A stretch of 64,000 nucleotides of DNA from Kordiimonas marina. GTDB taxonomy: Bacteria > Pseudomonadota > Alphaproteobacteria > Sphingomonadales > Kordiimonadaceae. Every line of letters begins with the position of its first letter. Position 1 is the stretch's first letter. Made by a program: the position numbers and the translations under genes. The notes beneath the pieces were generated by a model. The model saw nothing but the letters and a program-made list of their open reading frames with translations. It ran no database searches and had not been told where the DNA came from. The stretch lies in assembly GCF_023006325.1 (NCBI RefSeq), contig NZ_JAINDF010000002.1, positions 62,001 through 126,000 on the forward strand, written 5' to 3'. Positions 52 to 64,000 of the stretch are shown here, one piece after another.

Positions 52-693
52 TTGGCGCGGCTTATACGCTTCACGAAAGCTCTTGTAAAGCTGCTCGCCA
101 TAGGGGAAGGATGGGACAACCTATCAGGGAGTATTGATGCCGTGGATACTATCCTCAAAAAGAAGCTGGCCTTTGCGCTTATCCAGCTCGCCGCCGGGAT
201 CGCTCTTTTAGTCGGTGATTCCCTCGGTTGGTTTTCGGCCACTGTTTTTCCGTTTGTGATCATCAGCAGCGGTCTTTACCAGACCGTACGGTTCTATGAT
301 CTTCTGAAGGAGAGGAAACAGAAGGGTACTGACCGCTTCATCAAGGATCAGGCTCGCCAGTTGACCTATGCGGGTCTCCTGTTCAGCGCTGGCCGGAAAG
401 CTGGTGCAGGGAAGGCCGAGATCGAAAAGCTCCAGCAGCTGATGGAGGAACGCTTTGGGTCCGCGCCCCTCTATCCGATGGTGGCCAGGGGTATCGAGGA
501 GGCGGACGGCTTGGAAGGCAGGAAGTCTCTTTTTGAAGATCTGCGGCTGTTTTCCCGCAGCTTTGGCGCCGATACCGTGCAGGAGCTTTTGCAGCTGTTC
601 CAAGGGTTCGCTCATGATCCGGTACTGAGGTCGCCGATGACTGAGCAAGCTTATAGCGAGCTGGAGGCTGTGCTGGAGAGCGCACGGGCCTGA
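52..693 (+). CDS. Unrecognised membrane-anchored protein
   Basis: I do not recognise this 213-aa protein. Two hydrophobic segments at about residues 40-56 and 62-78 form a hairpin in the membrane, flanked by basic residues. The rest (about 96-210) is a soluble, helix-rich domain. Residues 95-135, with a basic stretch followed by alternating acidic and hydrophobic positions, faintly recall the TerB/DjlA-type helical domain, but I would not name it. The proposed start is a TTG at 52. The frame is open to the window edge, so the true start is uncertain, although a terminator-like hairpin at 20-47 favours a start near 52. It converges on the acyltransferase gene, with about 20 bp between the stops. 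Confidence 0.6.
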   Translation: MARLIRFTKALVKLLAIGEGWDNLSGSIDAVDTILKKKLAFALIQLAAGIALLVGDSLGWFSATVFPFVIISSGLYQTVRFYDLLKERKQKGTDRFIKDQARQLTYAGLLFSAGRKAGAGKAEIEKLQQLMEERFGSAPLYPMVARGIEEADGLEGRKSLFEDLRLFSRSFGADTVQELLQLFQGFAHDPVLRSPMTEQAYSELEAVLESARA

Positions 694-714
694 GCCCGCG
701 CGCCATTTTTTCCT

Positions 715-1908
715 TTATTCCGCCATCACAGGCACAGCCTTGGCTTTCAGCGCCTTCAGGCTGGGCGCATCCCCGAACACGCCGAACAGGGGCCGGAGCC
801 ACGAAAGCGGCCGGATGACATATTCATAAAGCCCGAAGCAGCCGAGCGTGGTGAGCCCCACGAGGGCCACGAACTCGGGCACGGCGCCAAGGTGGAAGCC
901 GGACAGCCATACCCCGAACAGGATAATCAGCGTCTGGTGCAGGATATAATAAGGGAAGATCGCCCGGGTGAAATAGGTCAGCAGCGGGCTCGGCCGGTTG
1001 AGATATTCCTGGGCCGCGCCCAGAAGGCTCAGGATAACCGCCCAAGCATAGAGCACCTTGGACACCTGCGCGATCACGGTCAGCACCGGGTGGCCGTGCA
1101 TCCACTGGGCCCAATGGCTCCAGACCGGGGTGAGGATGATGCCGAGGCCCACCGCCACGGTCAGGCACAGCCGCCACTGGCTTGCGACCACCCGCCAGAA
1201 GGCACCGCTTTTCGCAAGGAGCAGGCCATAGAGGAAGATGGTGAAAAAGTTGGCGTGGGCGTTCCAGTCGTCAATGAGCGCATGGGTCATCGGGAACCAC
1301 ATGTCGGTGGTGAAGCGGAACAGGATGAAGGGCAGGATCGGGATGATGAGGATACGCCCGCCTGACAGCAGGCGTTCGACTCGGTCATTATCGAGTCGTG
1401 CCGCCAGCCGGCGGAGCAGCGGCATCAGCGCCATGGCGACGAGCGTGTAAGCGATCAGGTACGCGACATACCAAAGATGGTTCCAGGTCGGCACGATGAT
1501 GCTGAAGCTGTCATGGCTCAGGTAGCGCGGCCAGAAGGCGAGGATGCCGGGCTCGATCTCATGAAGCCGGAGCAGCTGGAAGTAGGATTGCGGCATCACG
1601 ATCACCGCCATGCCGAACGCGAGCGGCACGAAAAGCTTGTAGAAACGGCTCCAGGTGAACTGAAGCGCCGGCGCTTTGTCGGCGGCGAAGCGGATGGCAA
1701 CGCCCGATATGAAGAACAGAAGTGACAGGCGCCACGGACTGAGGAGCATCATCGGGGCTTCGGGAGCCGTGTTCATATAGGGGCTTTTGACGTGCCAGTC
1801 CCACGGCACATAATACATGCCGATGTGATAGAAGATCAGAAGCCCGAAGGCGATGACGCGTAACCAGTCAAGGTCATAGCGCCTGCGGCTGAGGGTGGGT
1901 GCTGTCAT
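715..1908 (-). CDS. Acyltransferase family 3 membrane protein (MdoC/OatA-like)
   Basis: A 397-aa integral membrane protein with about ten hydrophobic segments, matching acyltransferase family 3. These enzymes move acyl groups (acetyl, succinyl) onto periplasmic glucans, LPS or peptidoglycan. The N-terminus has the family hallmark: YDLDWLR followed by a first membrane helix containing FYH (His28), the likely catalytic histidine. No SGNH domain is attached. The start ATG at 1908 has a GGGAGA ribosome site about 9 nt upstream. It is divergent from a membrane-bound LytTR regulator (224 bp apart), so the regulator may control it, which is inference. The substrate cannot be told from sequence. Confidence 0.85.
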   Translation of the reverse strand: MTAPTLSRRRYDLDWLRVIAFGLLIFYHIGMYYVPWDWHVKSPYMNTAPEAPMMLLSPWRLSLLFFISGVAIRFAADKAPALQFTWSRFYKLFVPLAFGMAVIVMPQSYFQLLRLHEIEPGILAFWPRYLSHDSFSIIVPTWNHLWYVAYLIAYTLVAMALMPLLRRLAARLDNDRVERLLSGGRILIIPILPFILFRFTTDMWFPMTHALIDDWNAHANFFTIFLYGLLLAKSGAFWRVVASQWRLCLTVAVGLGIILTPVWSHWAQWMHGHPVLTVIAQVSKVLYAWAVILSLLGAAQEYLNRPSPLLTYFTRAIFPYYILHQTLIILFGVWLSGFHLGAVPEFVALVGLTTLGCFGLYEYVIRPLSWLRPLFGVFGDAPSLKALKAKAVPVMAE

Positions 1909-2099
1909 GACTCGGGTCTCCCGAAATTTTTGCGATGTTTTTTGATGTCAGGAAACCTGCCTGAGATGCCTGTCTGCCGCCAGCGCGTGGGGGCGAATTA
2001 TGCGCCCGGCGGGATAAGCGGCAGGCGTAATTCGGGCCGCTGGGATGAGCGGAAAGTGGGCAGGGACAAGCGGTAAAAGCCCTGATTTAAAAGGCCTTT

Positions 2100-2112
2100 G
2101 CGGAAATTCCGC
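2100..2112. promoter_or_regulatory. 13-bp palindrome upstream of LytTR gene
   Basis: GCGGAAATTCCGC is a perfect palindrome (6-bp arms around one central base) 20 bp before the ATG of the LytTR regulator. It may be an operator, possibly for autoregulation. No known consensus is matched. Confidence 0.3.
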
Positions 2113-2132
2113 GCCGTAATAGACTGCCGTGC

Positions 2133-2954
2133 ATGATTGGACGTGCGCTTAAAGCTTATATCGGCACCTACCGGCGGCATGTGGCCTTTGTCGTGGCGAC
2201 AGTGGCGATAACGGCCGTCTTTACCGCCGTCAACAGCGCCTCCGTTATCAGCGATTACGCCCGGCTCGGCCAGCCCATCGCCTGGGGCAAGCCGGTGATG
2301 TTTGAGACCACGAGCGCGCTCGCGATCCTGATCATGCTGCCGCTCATCATCCGGGTGGGGGAGGTCTGGCCGCCCACCCGCGCCACGTGGCTCCGGCAGG
2401 TGCCGCGCTATATTTTGGCCAGTCTCATCTTTTCCGCCGGGCACGTCACGCTCATGGTCATCATGCGGCAGTTGCTTTATACGCCGCTCTTTGGGGGCAG
2501 CTATGACTTTTTCCGCGGTGGCTATGGCGCCATCCCTTACGAATATTGGAAGGACCTCCGCACCTTCGTGCTGCTGACAGGGGCTTTTTTCCTGCTTAAG
2601 GATGCTATGGCCGGGCGGGCGGCCAAAAAAGGAATGGCCCCAATCGAGCTCAGGAGCGGCGCTACGCGCATCTTGCTGGACCCGGCCGAGTTTCTTTACG
2701 CCAAGGCGGCGGCCAACTATGCCGAGATCATCACGCTCACCGGCGAAAGCCTCGCCCGCATCACGCTGAAGGAGCTTGAGGAAAAGCTGAAAGAAGGCGG
2801 GGTTCAGGCCGTGCGGGTGCACCGTTCGATGCTGGTGAACCGCGCCATGATCCAGACAATCGACCCGCTACCGGGCGGCGATATGAAGCTGGCCCTCAAG
2901 GGCGGCCACACGCTCCGCGCCAGCCGCCGCTATAAGGCGGGGCTTGATCAGTAA
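2133..2954 (+). CDS. Membrane-anchored LytTR-family transcription regulator
   Basis: A 273-aa protein with an N-terminal half of about four membrane segments (residues 17-40, 50-70, 90-112, 145-160) and a C-terminal LytTR DNA-binding domain (about 172-270). The LytTR signature is visible: FLYAKAAANYAEI near the domain start, ITLKELEEKL, then VHRSMLVNRAMI and a final RRYKAGLD. LytTR domains bind imperfect direct repeats. Membrane-tethered versions without a receiver domain occur in many alphaproteobacteria, where the signal is usually unknown. The gene is divergent from the acyltransferase, a likely target by position. The ATG at 2133 lacks a strong Shine-Dalgarno. Confidence 0.88.
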   Translation: MIGRALKAYIGTYRRHVAFVVATVAITAVFTAVNSASVISDYARLGQPIAWGKPVMFETTSALAILIMLPLIIRVGEVWPPTRATWLRQVPRYILASLIFSAGHVTLMVIMRQLLYTPLFGGSYDFFRGGYGAIPYEYWKDLRTFVLLTGAFFLLKDAMAGRAAKKGMAPIELRSGATRILLDPAEFLYAKAAANYAEIITLTGESLARITLKELEEKLKEGGVQAVRVHRSMLVNRAMIQTIDPLPGGDMKLALKGGHTLRASRRYKAGLDQ

Positions 2955-2993
2955 AGTTGCGTTTTAGGTGCCTTCCCAACCCAAGTCCTCATA

Positions 2994-3117
2994 GTGTCAC
3001 CCCGGGGTCGTAAAGCGGGCGCTTGCGCCACCTGATCCCGGAGTCCATACGATGCTTGAACTCGCACGGAAGGCGGCCGGTTGAGTTGTGGATAGCGGGA
3101 TCAAGTCCCGCTATGAC
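2994..3117. repeat. REP-like palindromic intergenic repeat
   Basis: This 124-bp intergenic element begins GTGTCACCCCGGGGTC and ends with a perfect hairpin TAGCGGGA-TCAAG-TCCCGCTA (3093-3113) followed by TGAC. Its ends (GTGTCA... and ...TGAC) with an internal 'gatcaagtcccg' motif resemble the interspersed palindromic repeats common between genes in alphaproteobacterial genomes. Only one copy was seen here, so its repeat status rests on resemblance. Confidence 0.5.
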
Positions 3118-3154
3118 TCAAGGAAAGAAATGGCGCAGAGTAAGATACTTCGCC

Positions 3155-3673
3155 TTAGTTGCATGCCTTCGTAATGGCGTTATAGGCGGCGGTGAAGCCC
3201 GAAAGGCTGTAGGTGTCGGTCGTCTTCGTGCCGCGCTGGCTGACGCCGTAGGCGACAAGGTGGCTGCCGGCCCTCATGGCGTTCACCATGGCGGTGTCAT
3301 CCTTGGGGTCATAGGCCCAGGCGCCCTCGCCTTCGGTGAACAGCTCGAATTGGTGGCGGCCGTCGACGCGCACCTTCATGGTGCTGCCTTCCTTGAGCGG
3401 ATAGCCGACGATGACATTCACTTCGTTTTTCACGTGCGCGGCCGGGCGGTGGCTGATGGTGATATAGATATCGCCGCGGCTGGCCCCGCTGCGGCTGGCG
3501 ACTGATTTTTTCGGCATCGAGATCATGTAGCAGACCTTGGTGTTGCCATGTTTGGAAACGATGGCGTCCCAGTCCCGGTAACTGCCCAATAGTTCGCGCC
3601 CCGCTGCGGCGCTGGCCGGCAGGCTAAGCCCGAGGATAAGGGCGGCGAACAGGGTAACGGTTCTGGTCTGCAT
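3155..3673 (-). CDS. IalB-like (invasion-associated locus B) periplasmic protein
   Basis: A 172-aa exported protein with a clear signal peptide (residues 1-24, ending ASAAAG). The body matches the invasion-associated locus B family of alphaproteobacteria: a short domain starting from a W-x-A-I region, KVCYMISMPKK, a middle RGDIYITIS strand and a C-terminal YNAITKAC. Two cysteines (KVC and KAC) may form a disulfide. I chose the ATG at 3673 because AGGAGG lies 9 nt upstream; an upstream ATG would only add a non-signal N-terminus. It is the last gene of a run with the TrmH-like methyltransferase (4-bp gap). The role in non-pathogens is unknown. Confidence 0.82.
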   Translation of the reverse strand: MQTRTVTLFAALILGLSLPASAAAGRELLGSYRDWDAIVSKHGNTKVCYMISMPKKSVASRSGASRGDIYITISHRPAAHVKNEVNVIVGYPLKEGSTMKVRVDGRHQFELFTEGEGAWAYDPKDDTAMVNAMRAGSHLVAYGVSQRGTKTTDTYSLSGFTAAYNAITKACN

Positions 3674-62098: not shown

Positions 62099-62599
62099 AT
62101 GGCAAAATCGAACAAGCATCCCTATGCCGTTGGCGATTACATCGTATACCCGAAGCATGGCGTCGGCCGGATCACCGAGCTGGAGACGCAGGAAATCGCC
62201 GGGCTGGCGCTGGAGCTTTACGTTATCCGGTTTGAAAAAGAACGCATGACCCTGCGTGTCCCGACCAACAAGGCGGAAGTCAGCGGTATGCGCCGCCTGT
62301 CGTCCGACGCGACGCTCAAGGAAGCCTTCACGACCCTCAAGGGCAAGGCCAAGATCAAGCGCACGATGTGGAGCCGCCGGGCCCAGGAATATGAAGCCAA
62401 GATCAACTCGGGGGACCTGGTCTCCATCGCCGAAGTGGTGCGGGACCTGCACCGCGGCGCCGACCAGCCTGAGCAGTCCTACAGCGAACGCCAGATCTAT
62501 GAGGCCGCCCTCGGCCGTCTGGCCCGCGAACTCGCCGCGGTCGAGGATATCGACGAAGCCGCCGCGATGGTGAAGCTGGAGAAGGAACTGGCCGCTTAA
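62099..62599 (+). CDS. carD: CarD family transcription regulator
   Basis: A 166-aa CarD/CdnL protein that binds the RNA polymerase beta subunit and stabilises open complexes, notably at rRNA and other growth promoters. The N-terminal Tudor-like RNAP-interaction domain starts YAVGDYIVYPKHGVGRITEL (about 8-27) and includes YVIRFEKERMTLRVPTN. The C-terminal helical DNA-binding domain runs from about 75 (WSRRAQEYEAKINSGDL). GAAGGA lies about 10 nt before the ATG. A strong terminator follows. Confidence 0.96.
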   Translation: MAKSNKHPYAVGDYIVYPKHGVGRITELETQEIAGLALELYVIRFEKERMTLRVPTNKAEVSGMRRLSSDATLKEAFTTLKGKAKIKRTMWSRRAQEYEAKINSGDLVSIAEVVRDLHRGADQPEQSYSERQIYEAALGRLARELAAVEDIDEAAAMVKLEKELAA

Positions 62600-62630: not shown

Positions 62631-62659
62631 AACCCGTCTCACACCGAGGCGGGTTTTTT
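62631..62659 (+). terminator. Rho-independent terminator of carD
   Basis: Nine-pair stem AACCCGTCT/AGGCGGGTT (62631-62639 with 62647-62655, one G-U) followed by TTTTTT. A run of nine G's (62663-62671) comes just after. AT-rich DNA begins here. Confidence 0.85.
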
Positions 62660-62714
62660 GTTGGGGGGGGGAGCGGTCACTAACGGCTTTTTTCTTATAT
62701 TGGATCACGGCCAT

Positions 62715-62730
62715 TGACGCATGAGCGTCA
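62715..62730. promoter_or_regulatory. Inverted repeat in front of the AT-rich gene
   Basis: TGACGC-ATGA-GCGTCA, a perfect 6-bp inverted repeat overlapping a -35-like TTGACG (62714-62719), about 40 bp before the first in-frame ATG. A TATTAT-like stretch near 62740-62750 could serve as a -10. It may be an operator for the gene that follows. Confidence 0.35.
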
Positions 62731-62769
62731 CATTCAAGTCGGGCGTTATTATAAGAGAAAGTTGAAGTG

Positions 62770-64000
62770 ATGAAGTTTGAGATATCAGGCTCAATGTTTC
62801 CGGTTAATAAACTTAAAAATAGAGCTTCGGAGACAAGTGGGCACATTATCGCTCAGAATTTCATAACAACATTTCCAAGGGATTTCATAATTGGCTTTGC
62901 TTCTCGTTTGCCTGCGATACTATTATTAATATCCTCTGACACAGGTATTGGTAGTGAAGAAGGATTTGAGTCGTATATGAAGCTGAGAACGGCAGCTCAA
63001 AAAAAGCGGAATACTATTCGTGCCCAGAAGCTGCATCGGCGTGCGCAGGCATACAAACATTGGCGTCGTACGGAGAATATCCGCAAATATATAAATCCAA
63101 ATTATCGTGAGGGCTCACGATGGCGCTTACGTTATGAGAAATATGAACGGCAGTATTTGGCTTTACCAGCACAGCTGAGTCTTAGTCATAACTATGAAGA
63201 GACAGTTTCTTTTTTACATGATTTTAGGAAGTGCATCTTCGAGGATCGCTGTCCCCTTCAATTGGATTTTACAACGTTGAAACATGTCAGCCCTGGGGCG
63301 GCTCTTGTGTTAGTTGCGGAAATTGATCGATGGCGGAAACTATTCAAGTTTCGCCCTAAGGCTGTCGACCTTGAAAAATGGGACACAAAAATTCGCCACC
63401 TACTTAAACAAATGGGCTTTTTCAATGTATTAAATGTGTCCAACGCCCCGACGGATGAACTTTCAGAGGTTGATGCGGCCCCAGACGGCGTTATTTCGGA
63501 GTTCTTAGAATTTACATCTTCAGATAAAGTGGTAGGAGAACTGGCGATCTCCCTTAGGCAGAAGCTGGAAGAGCTCGCGGGAGAGGGTATGCCTGAACGT
63601 GGAGGACTATATCGTTCAATCTCTGAGGCTATGACGAACGTTTTAAAGCACGCCTACCCTGACGAAATTAGAAACAGCGTTTCATGCCTACCTGATCGGT
63701 GGTGGATGTCTGGGTCATTTCGTAGGGATCAGAGACGCATGACGGTTATGTTCTTTGATCAGGGTGTTGGGATTGCAAAAACGCTTCCACGTAGGTTTGG
63801 CTGGGAACAGATCCAAGGCTTCCTAGCGAAGCTAGGGCTTACTCAAGATGACGCGTCGATGATTCGAGCTGCTATGGAAATGGGAAGAAGCCAAACAGGA
63901 ATGCCGTATCGAGGTAAGGGGTTGCCTGATATCCGTGCCTTGATTGACAAACTTGGAGAGGGACGTTTGCGTATTGTCAGCGGTGCAGGTCACTACCAGT
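62770..64000 (+). CDS. STAS-like / GHKL ATPase protein, 3' end outside window
   Basis: An open frame of at least 410 codons that runs off the window. From the first ATG, residues 70-125 are basic, 155-220 look STAS-like (CPLQLDFTTLKHVSPGAALV), and the C-terminal part is a GHKL ATPase: N-box with Glu286, Asn290 and KHA to 295, G1 box FFDQGVGI (Asp330, Gly332, Gly334) and G2 box RGKGLPDI (Gly382, Gly384). No phospho-acceptor His or HisKA domain is seen, so it is not a standard sensor kinase; it resembles the ATP-binding partner found with STAS-like DUF4325 genes. Codon use is clearly AT-richer than elsewhere. A start at 62977 (residue 70, AGAAGGA upstream) is also possible. Confidence 0.75.
   Translation, partial: MKFEISGSMFPVNKLKNRASETSGHIIAQNFITTFPRDFIIGFASRLPAILLLISSDTGIGSEEGFESYMKLRTAAQKKRNTIRAQKLHRRAQAYKHWRRTENIRKYINPNYREGSRWRLRYEKYERQYLALPAQLSLSHNYEETVSFLHDFRKCIFEDRCPLQLDFTTLKHVSPGAALVLVAEIDRWRKLFKFRPKAVDLEKWDTKIRHLLKQMGFFNVLNVSNAPTDELSEVDAAPDGVISEFLEFTSSDKVVGELAISLRQKLEELAGEGMPERGGLYRSISEAMTNVLKHAYPDEIRNSVSCLPDRWWMSGSFRRDQRRMTVMFFDQGVGIAKTLPRRFGWEQIQGFLAKLGLTQDDASMIRAAMEMGRSQTGMPYRGKGLPDIRALIDKLGEGRLRIVSGAGHYQ

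Follow-up and report, generated by a model that had tools for sequence, protein, structure and literature searches.

The stretch of Kordiimonas marina DNA studied here (64,000 nucleotides, hereafter the window) ends inside a three-gene islet located between the core genes carD and rpoH. The islet encodes a GHKL ATPase (K), a small DUF4325 protein (S) and a membrane protein of an unnamed family (M), and the same trio recurs in bacterial genomes, plasmids and viral contigs. The parts of K-S-M, their order, near-contact and co-inheritance, and the insertion into an empty site, are well supported. K-S-M may be a membrane-effector module that is gated by phosphorylation and travels with temperate phages, plasmids and small chromosomal islets; we put the chances of this reading at about even. 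A more tentative extension of this proposal is that the trio represents an undescribed, widespread class of phage-carried abortive infection, in which phosphorylation of a DUF4325 serine unleashes a membrane effector with a single helix. No description of K-S-M was found in the open-licence literature searched.

The islet and its insertion site

The core gene carD (positions 62099 to 62599, forward strand; CarD_C 4.3e-25, CarD_TRCF_RID 7.4e-17) forms the left flank of the islet and is followed by a terminator-like hairpin with a T run, read by eye at positions 62631 to 62659 of the same strand. All the following genes are also on the forward strand. K (62767 to 64083) crosses the window edge at 64000 and ends at position 1584 of stretch L002, in which genes were read over the first 18 kb past the window of this 3.68-Mb genome. 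Its product (438 aa) combines a STAS-like segment with a GHKL ATPase of the RsbW/SpoIIAB type. Past the window edge, the end of K is followed by S (64107 to 64427; 1608 to 1928 in L002), which encodes a STAS-like protein of 106 aa with a DUF4325 domain (PF14213), by M (64436 to 64864; 1937 to 2365 in L002), which encodes a protein of 142 aa with one N-terminal transmembrane segment and no Pfam family, and by an rpoH-like sigma-32 gene (65080 to 65961; 2581 to 3462 in L002; sigma-32 1.1e-114). The gaps measure 23 bp between K and S, 8 bp between S and M and 215 bp between M and rpoH, and the islet spans about 2.1 kb, counted from the first, doubtful start of K to the end of M. This GTG start at 62767 is probably not the true one; in five of seven aligned relatives K begins near residue 71, corresponding to an ATG at 62977, and residues 1–5 and 7–66 were modelled below pLDDT 50. 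The open 70-codon stretch from 62767 to 62976, missing in five of the seven relatives, may be a leader rather than coding sequence.

The original prediction, made from the window only, described the edge of an AT-rich accessory island opening with a long gene that runs off the end, and much of this description held. The GC content is 0.472 in the bin from 63001 to 64000, against at least 0.543 in the other 63 one-kb bins of the window, and the predicted preference for codons ending in A or T is found in all three genes, with GC3 values of 0.426 (K), 0.374 (S) and 0.462 (M), each below the minimum of 0.589 (median 0.78) among 38 greedily chosen window ORFs of at least 200 aa. The frame opened at 62767 does continue, up to 438 aa, and a DUF4325 gene (PF14213, 2.9e-13) does adjoin it. 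By contrast, the "edge of an island" must be abandoned: the GC content exceeds 0.6 again from about 1 kb past the window end and returns to the genome level at rpoH, and core genes resume after M. Because the composition recovers and core genes follow M, a large island is ruled out.

The gene carD is present in all 29 genomes of the family, our genome included. In 15 of 18 same-genus relatives it is separated from rpoH by 159–373 bp, against about 2,480 bp here; two others have gaps of 3,107 bp (G014) and 2,910 bp (G010) that hold other genes, and in the eighteenth (G015) the sequence ends at a contig edge, leaving the site not decidable. The site is also empty in three of ten genomes from other genera of the family (169, 197 and 193 bp), and no rpoH match was found in the stretches examined for the other seven. 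Nine of these 18 empty sites contain short matches (12–39 bp) to the stretch around the carD hairpin, and the insert begins somewhere after this hairpin. K is absent from all 18 same-genus relatives and present in four of 296 genomes of the order, including our own, and M was found in our own genome only among 31 genomes. The DNA of the islet is foreign in composition and variable among relatives. Thus, the predicted accessory, variable DNA exists as an insertion absent from relatives, but as a three-gene islet of about 2 kb. Core genes downstream and general presence of the gene in relatives had both been named as observations that would count against an island; the former was found, whereas the relatives do without the cassette.

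Since the carD–rpoH gap is empty in most relatives and holds other inserts in G014 and G010, it is thus a small integration hotspot. In G010 (L041), the gap contains a 127-aa BlaI-like ORF and a 733-aa BlaR1/M56-like ORF with ankyrin-like repeats (by eye). The 3.1-kb gap of G014 (L040) contains ORFs of unknown kind, including two of 146 and 122 aa.

Recurrence and settings of the trio

In the three other K-bearing genomes of the order, S always adjoins K; M was recognisable by eye in two of them, and the third ORF of the last one (L050) matched the M profile. Scanning with S gave 148 genomic and 140 viral-contig relatives, the best 80 of each being kept (L055–L214). Together with seven loci brought in via K (L048–L054), they form a set of 167 loci, in which one locus appears twice, as L061 and as L050. 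Of the 160 S-found loci, 155 gave a K match (162/167 with the seven loci included); three of the five misses (L140, L160, L175) begin at S and two (L076, L207) do not. In 158 of the 167 loci, S directly follows K on the same strand.

A first M profile, built from six proteins, matched in 106/167 loci, always directly after S. After iteration on the same loci in which it was counted, the profile matched 162 of 165 third ORFs (156 of 158 without L048–L054), two loci without a usable third ORF (L063, L107) being left out. Among 25,975 ORFs it produced a single other match below 1e-3, a second copy of M in the viral contig L191. The three unmatched third ORFs (L054, L088, L125) likewise begin with a hydrophobic segment. 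This conserved third gene, which was beyond the view of the original prediction, strengthens its suggestion of a candidate undescribed system. In L191 (positions 447 to 3371), two S-M pairs face each other and one K was found.

The genes are tightly packed, with gaps within 60 bp for K-S in 137 and for S-M in 140 of 151 loci. In 107 loci (the set reduced by gene length), distance correlations reached 0.588 for K-S, 0.683 for K-M and 0.509 for S-M, each value being attained by none of 2,000 permutations in a test that ignores shared host descent.

The Pfam model provided another sample of 53 examined loci, 18 of which have a stand-alone S scoring strongly against the S profile. In 16 of these 18 loci the ORF after S matches the M profile; in the other two (L237, L262) it is small and has a hydrophobic stretch at its N-terminus. 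K matches were present in 16 of the 18 loci, the other two (L233, L237) lying in short stretches. The remaining loci of the sample encode fused GHKL–DUF4325 proteins, some opening with an HTH-like part (by eye), and short proteins of another type. Matches to both K and S were found on one ORF in seven cases, several of them weak, and such putative single-chain fusions are consistent with K and S acting together. Outside K-S-M, loci L216, L219, L221 and L228 encode single chains of about 350 aa with an HTH-like start (by eye) and DUF4325, which may be one-protein versions of the switch.

Among the taxa named in the titles of the genome loci are Alpha-, Beta- and Gammaproteobacteria, Mariprofundus, Desulfovibrio and relatives, Cytophagales, Luteolibacter and Latescibacteria. 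DUF4325 is not rare: among 385 genomes of the class, 22 have a PF14213 match, and among 398 of the phylum, 29; K, S and M were detected together by profile in nine and eight genomes, respectively, our own being counted in both.

For the analysis of neighbouring genes, the loci were reduced by K identity to 46 viral and 75 bacterial ones. A PHROGs scan covering 126 of the 170 listed neighbour ORFs of the viral contigs placed CI-type repressors first (phrog_4 with 15 members, phrog_6201 with 14). Ten ORFs chosen by size and orientation were checked singly and all ten were repressors; the repressor profile was built from them. This profile detected a CI-like repressor no more than 1.5 kb upstream of K, on the same strand, in 17 of the 46 viral loci, at a distance of up to 110 bp in 11 of these, and in four of the 75 bacterial ones. 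The other 29 viral and 71 bacterial loci gave no such match, K lying less than 700 bp from the start of the examined sequence in four of the 46 and seven of the 75. The position behind CI-like repressors suggests that the trio is likely expressed in lysogens. A phage search via K gave one record, Marinobacter phage AS1, in which the trio lies one gene away from a Cro/CI-type regulator on the other strand, and a search of E. coli genomes with two viral-contig versions gave no near match.

A plasmid search via K gave three records, in two of which K, S and M are all annotated. In L054, a Leptospira plasmid, the annotation places nucleotidyltransferase and HepT-like genes after K, S and a third gene. 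Depending on the scan, 136 of 137 or 130 of 133 neighbour ORFs of the bacterial loci were covered. They include type I restriction, MADS, Thoeris-like and DRT matches, in a descriptive listing without a control set, and also enolase, SHMT, tRNA synthetase and sigma-70 genes.

The three proteins and a candidate switch

The GHKL boxes of K are intact (E287/N291, D331-x-G333-x-G335, R382-G383-K-G385), as had been read from the sequence, and E287, N291, W312, D331, G333, G383 and G385 do not vary among 93 aligned K proteins, including our own. The Pfam scores, 19.2 bits for HATPase_c (cut-off 26.4) and 18.4 bits for HATPase_c_2 (cut-off 27.4), are both below the curated cut-offs. The predicted lack of a HisKA domain also proved correct, with no match at E values up to 10 for the part of K in the window and up to 1 for the whole protein. 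With no HisKA/DHp dimerisation domain match, K is not a histidine kinase. No HTH family of Pfam matched K. The best PDB profile matches are SpoIIAB and RsbW, both weak (E about 0.2), and Foldseek gave nothing at 0.001, the hits listed including the SpoIIAB complex (0.90), RsbW/RsbV (1.5) and a STAS protein. K contains an E-A-x-x-N motif; in SpoIIAB, the E/N pair corresponds to the general base and the metal ligand.

The STAS-like segment attributed to K from the start is more ambiguous: the predicted structure exhibits a strand/helix alternation and the motif register fits as judged by eye, but profile comparison with S revealed no significant similarity. In the serine-matching columns of this segment (by eye), the commonest residues are S (21%), A (36%), D (21%) and G (59%), so that the serine is not kept at the matching place.

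The S protein belongs to PF14213 by score (49.8 bits against a curated cut-off of 23), contains DUF4325 only and is the single match to this family in the genome. Its best PDB profile match is a STAS antagonist aligned over the GSSF motif, with a weak score (E 0.3), and its serine pair is located at the place matching that of SpoIIAA/RsbV. The S profile matched no PDB chain named VapS or CapS (if such entries are present there). Ser58 is present in 16 and Ser59 in 17 of the 18 stand-alone S of the Pfam-model sample, which were chosen by a profile built from the scanned loci; conservation of the serines in L055–L214 is no evidence, since the motif formed part of the scan patterns.

Our M has no Pfam match at E values up to 1 and matches the profile of the M family, of which it is not a row, at 2.7e-24. 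Its most hydrophobic 19-mer (2.33) starts at residue 7. Among 115 M proteins of at least 110 aa, our own included, an N-terminal 19-mer exceeds the hydrophobicity threshold of 1.3 in 94 and falls below it in 21, and K and R are more numerous after than before this 19-mer in 107. By the charge rule, M is therefore predicted to be an inner-membrane protein with an N-terminal helix and a cytoplasmic helical part. The M homologue of L097, modelled at pLDDT 95.3, starts with a long helix, after which come three shorter ones. Fold searches gave nothing significant (best E 0.12 in PDB and 0.027 in BFVD), with helical bundles of sensor kinases and chemoreceptors among the non-significant Foldseek hits. 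In a Pfam comparison of 110 M proteins, no family matched more than two members, and PIN was absent among the 25 of 100 families listed. As there is no significant fold match, the designation of M as an "effector" rests on its position, and its single helix could equally be an anchor or a sensor.

Placing M where VapC stands in VapKSC (compared below) yields a model that is a reasoned transfer from that system. One N-terminal helix would anchor M in the inner membrane, with the helical part in the cytoplasm, and in a healthy cell S would bind M and keep it inactive. The N-terminal part of K would sense an infection or DNA-damage signal and switch on the SpoIIAB/RsbW-type kinase domain, which would phosphorylate Ser58 or Ser59 of S. 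Phosphorylated S would release M, and the freed M would disturb the membrane and halt growth, aborting the infection. In this model we infer the kinase activity, the acceptor serine, the binding of S to M, the toxicity of M, the trigger and the anti-phage function. As a whole, the trio looks like an infection-triggered membrane alarm of an undescribed kind.

The main competitor of this model, to which we attribute a clearly lower probability, dispenses with a toxin: K and S would be a partner-switching regulator, as RsbW/RsbV are, of a target in the host or the phage, such as a sigma factor or repressor, with M as sensor or membrane anchor. The weak similarity of K and S to the respective partners in SpoIIAB-SpoIIAA and RsbW-RsbV, the sensor-type bundles listed for M and the proximity of rpoH in this genome all point in this direction. 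Yet rpoH occupies the same place in relatives without the cassette, and the conserved unit, with an S of about 106 aa consisting of DUF4325 only, contains neither a sigma factor nor a DNA-binding partner. Sigma-70 domains, of the RpoD type, were detected by Pfam in just two of the 136 nearest neighbours of the 75 bacterial loci.

Superinfection exclusion, with M blocking phage DNA entry or adsorption, K and S tuning M and the cell remaining unharmed, would agree with the repressor setting of the 17 viral contigs and with an inner-membrane location of M. We consider it rather improbable; blocking entry should scarcely call for a dedicated kinase and its substrate, and the trio is also found on plasmids and, in chromosomes, next to housekeeping genes. 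We regard it as very improbable that the islet has no function in this genome, whether as a decayed remnant or as a chance grouping of genes. Although the genome has a single DUF4325 match, the GC content is low and K is missing from the same-genus relatives, the three frames are open and closely spaced, the catalytic residues are conserved and M matches its family. Our preferred reading of K-S-M thus remains that of a phosphorylation-gated membrane-effector module, and, if it is true, some prophages carry a kinase-STAS switch behind their repressor.

Comparison with known systems

No known PADLOC defence family could be assigned to the trio: our S and M matched nothing and our K only PDC-M24A (E 0.052), and two of the 93 K proteins touch DrmA (best 4.1e-05). 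SpoIIAB-SpoIIAA and RsbW-RsbV are the closest solved relatives by profile, weakly, sharing E-A-x-x-N with K and the serine pair with S, but the cassette has no sigma factor (the neighbouring rpoH is a core gene) and K has an additional STAS-like segment. Although S is a member of PF14213, this family also comprises GHKL-DUF4325 fusions and short proteins with no M match next to them.

Phage lambda keeps rexAB behind its repressor, and RexB spans the membrane several times. M is not such a multi-span effector, a second hydrophobic segment being present in only seven of the 115 M proteins. Lambda RexAB and P. putida RexABpp are prophage genes near a CI-type repressor, with RexA as DNA-binding sensor and a membrane protein as growth-stopping effector that stays silent until triggered; RexBpp damaged membranes without measurable depolarisation (PMC12894663). 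The outcome proposed for K-S-M, a membrane effector stopping growth, would be similar, but no kinase-STAS pair is described in the parts of that source cited here (PMC12894663). WonAB and GHKL-Shedu, as presented in the cited part of PMC12137116, are different proteins from K, S and M. The HATPase-containing system predicted by DefensePredictor (Fig. 6F of PMC13092281) might, from what that figure presents, be related to K-S-M.

The CapK-CapS pair likewise associates a GHKL kinase with a STAS substrate, phosphorylation of a conserved serine being the switch, and Ser58 of SpoIIAA is the counterpart of the phosphorylated CapS serine (PMC13373217). CapK has an N-terminal HTH, and CapS, with a wHTH at its C-terminus, acts as repressor of an immune operon lying downstream (PMC13373217). 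By contrast, S has 106 aa with DUF4325 only and M next to it, and the trio is not directly upstream of an immune operon in this genome, where M and then rpoH follow. With no HTH family matching K and only DUF4325 matching S, the trio does not belong to CapKS.

The closest parallel is VapKSC, whose operon protected against one phage by about 2 logs (Chambers et al., EMBO J 2026, PMC13373217). In the parts of that paper drawn on here, VapS holds the toxin VapC, which is thought to be freed when VapK phosphorylates VapS; the phosphomimic VapS S48E neither bound nor restrained VapC. Triggering by single-stranded DNA is a prediction, and 103 of 289 VapKSC cases have another defence gene no more than 10 kb away (PMC13373217). 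Both systems have the same gene order, a STAS-GHKL kinase followed by a small STAS protein with a conserved Ser/Thr and a third gene (PMC13373217). As to the STAS and GHKL domains of the kinase, the GHKL motifs of K are intact but its Pfam scores lie below the cut-offs, and its STAS-like fold is predicted but was not significant in profile comparison; the DUF4325 protein S shares the trait of the conserved serine (Ser58, Ser59). The name DUF4325 is absent from the main text of PMC13373217, and the third gene encodes there a VapC-like PIN nuclease, and here a membrane protein of an unnamed family. K-S-M is thus not a member of VapKSC, because its third gene differs (M by profile in nearly all loci, not a PIN nuclease), nor of CapKS, because the HTH parts are missing; the kinase-STAS type of switch is itself already known. 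If our proposal is true, DUF4325, which Pfam lists as a domain of unknown function, and the M family would receive a first function, and the kinase-STAS pair would be a plug-and-play switch of the anti-sigma type, driving an RNase in VapKSC and a membrane protein in K-S-M.
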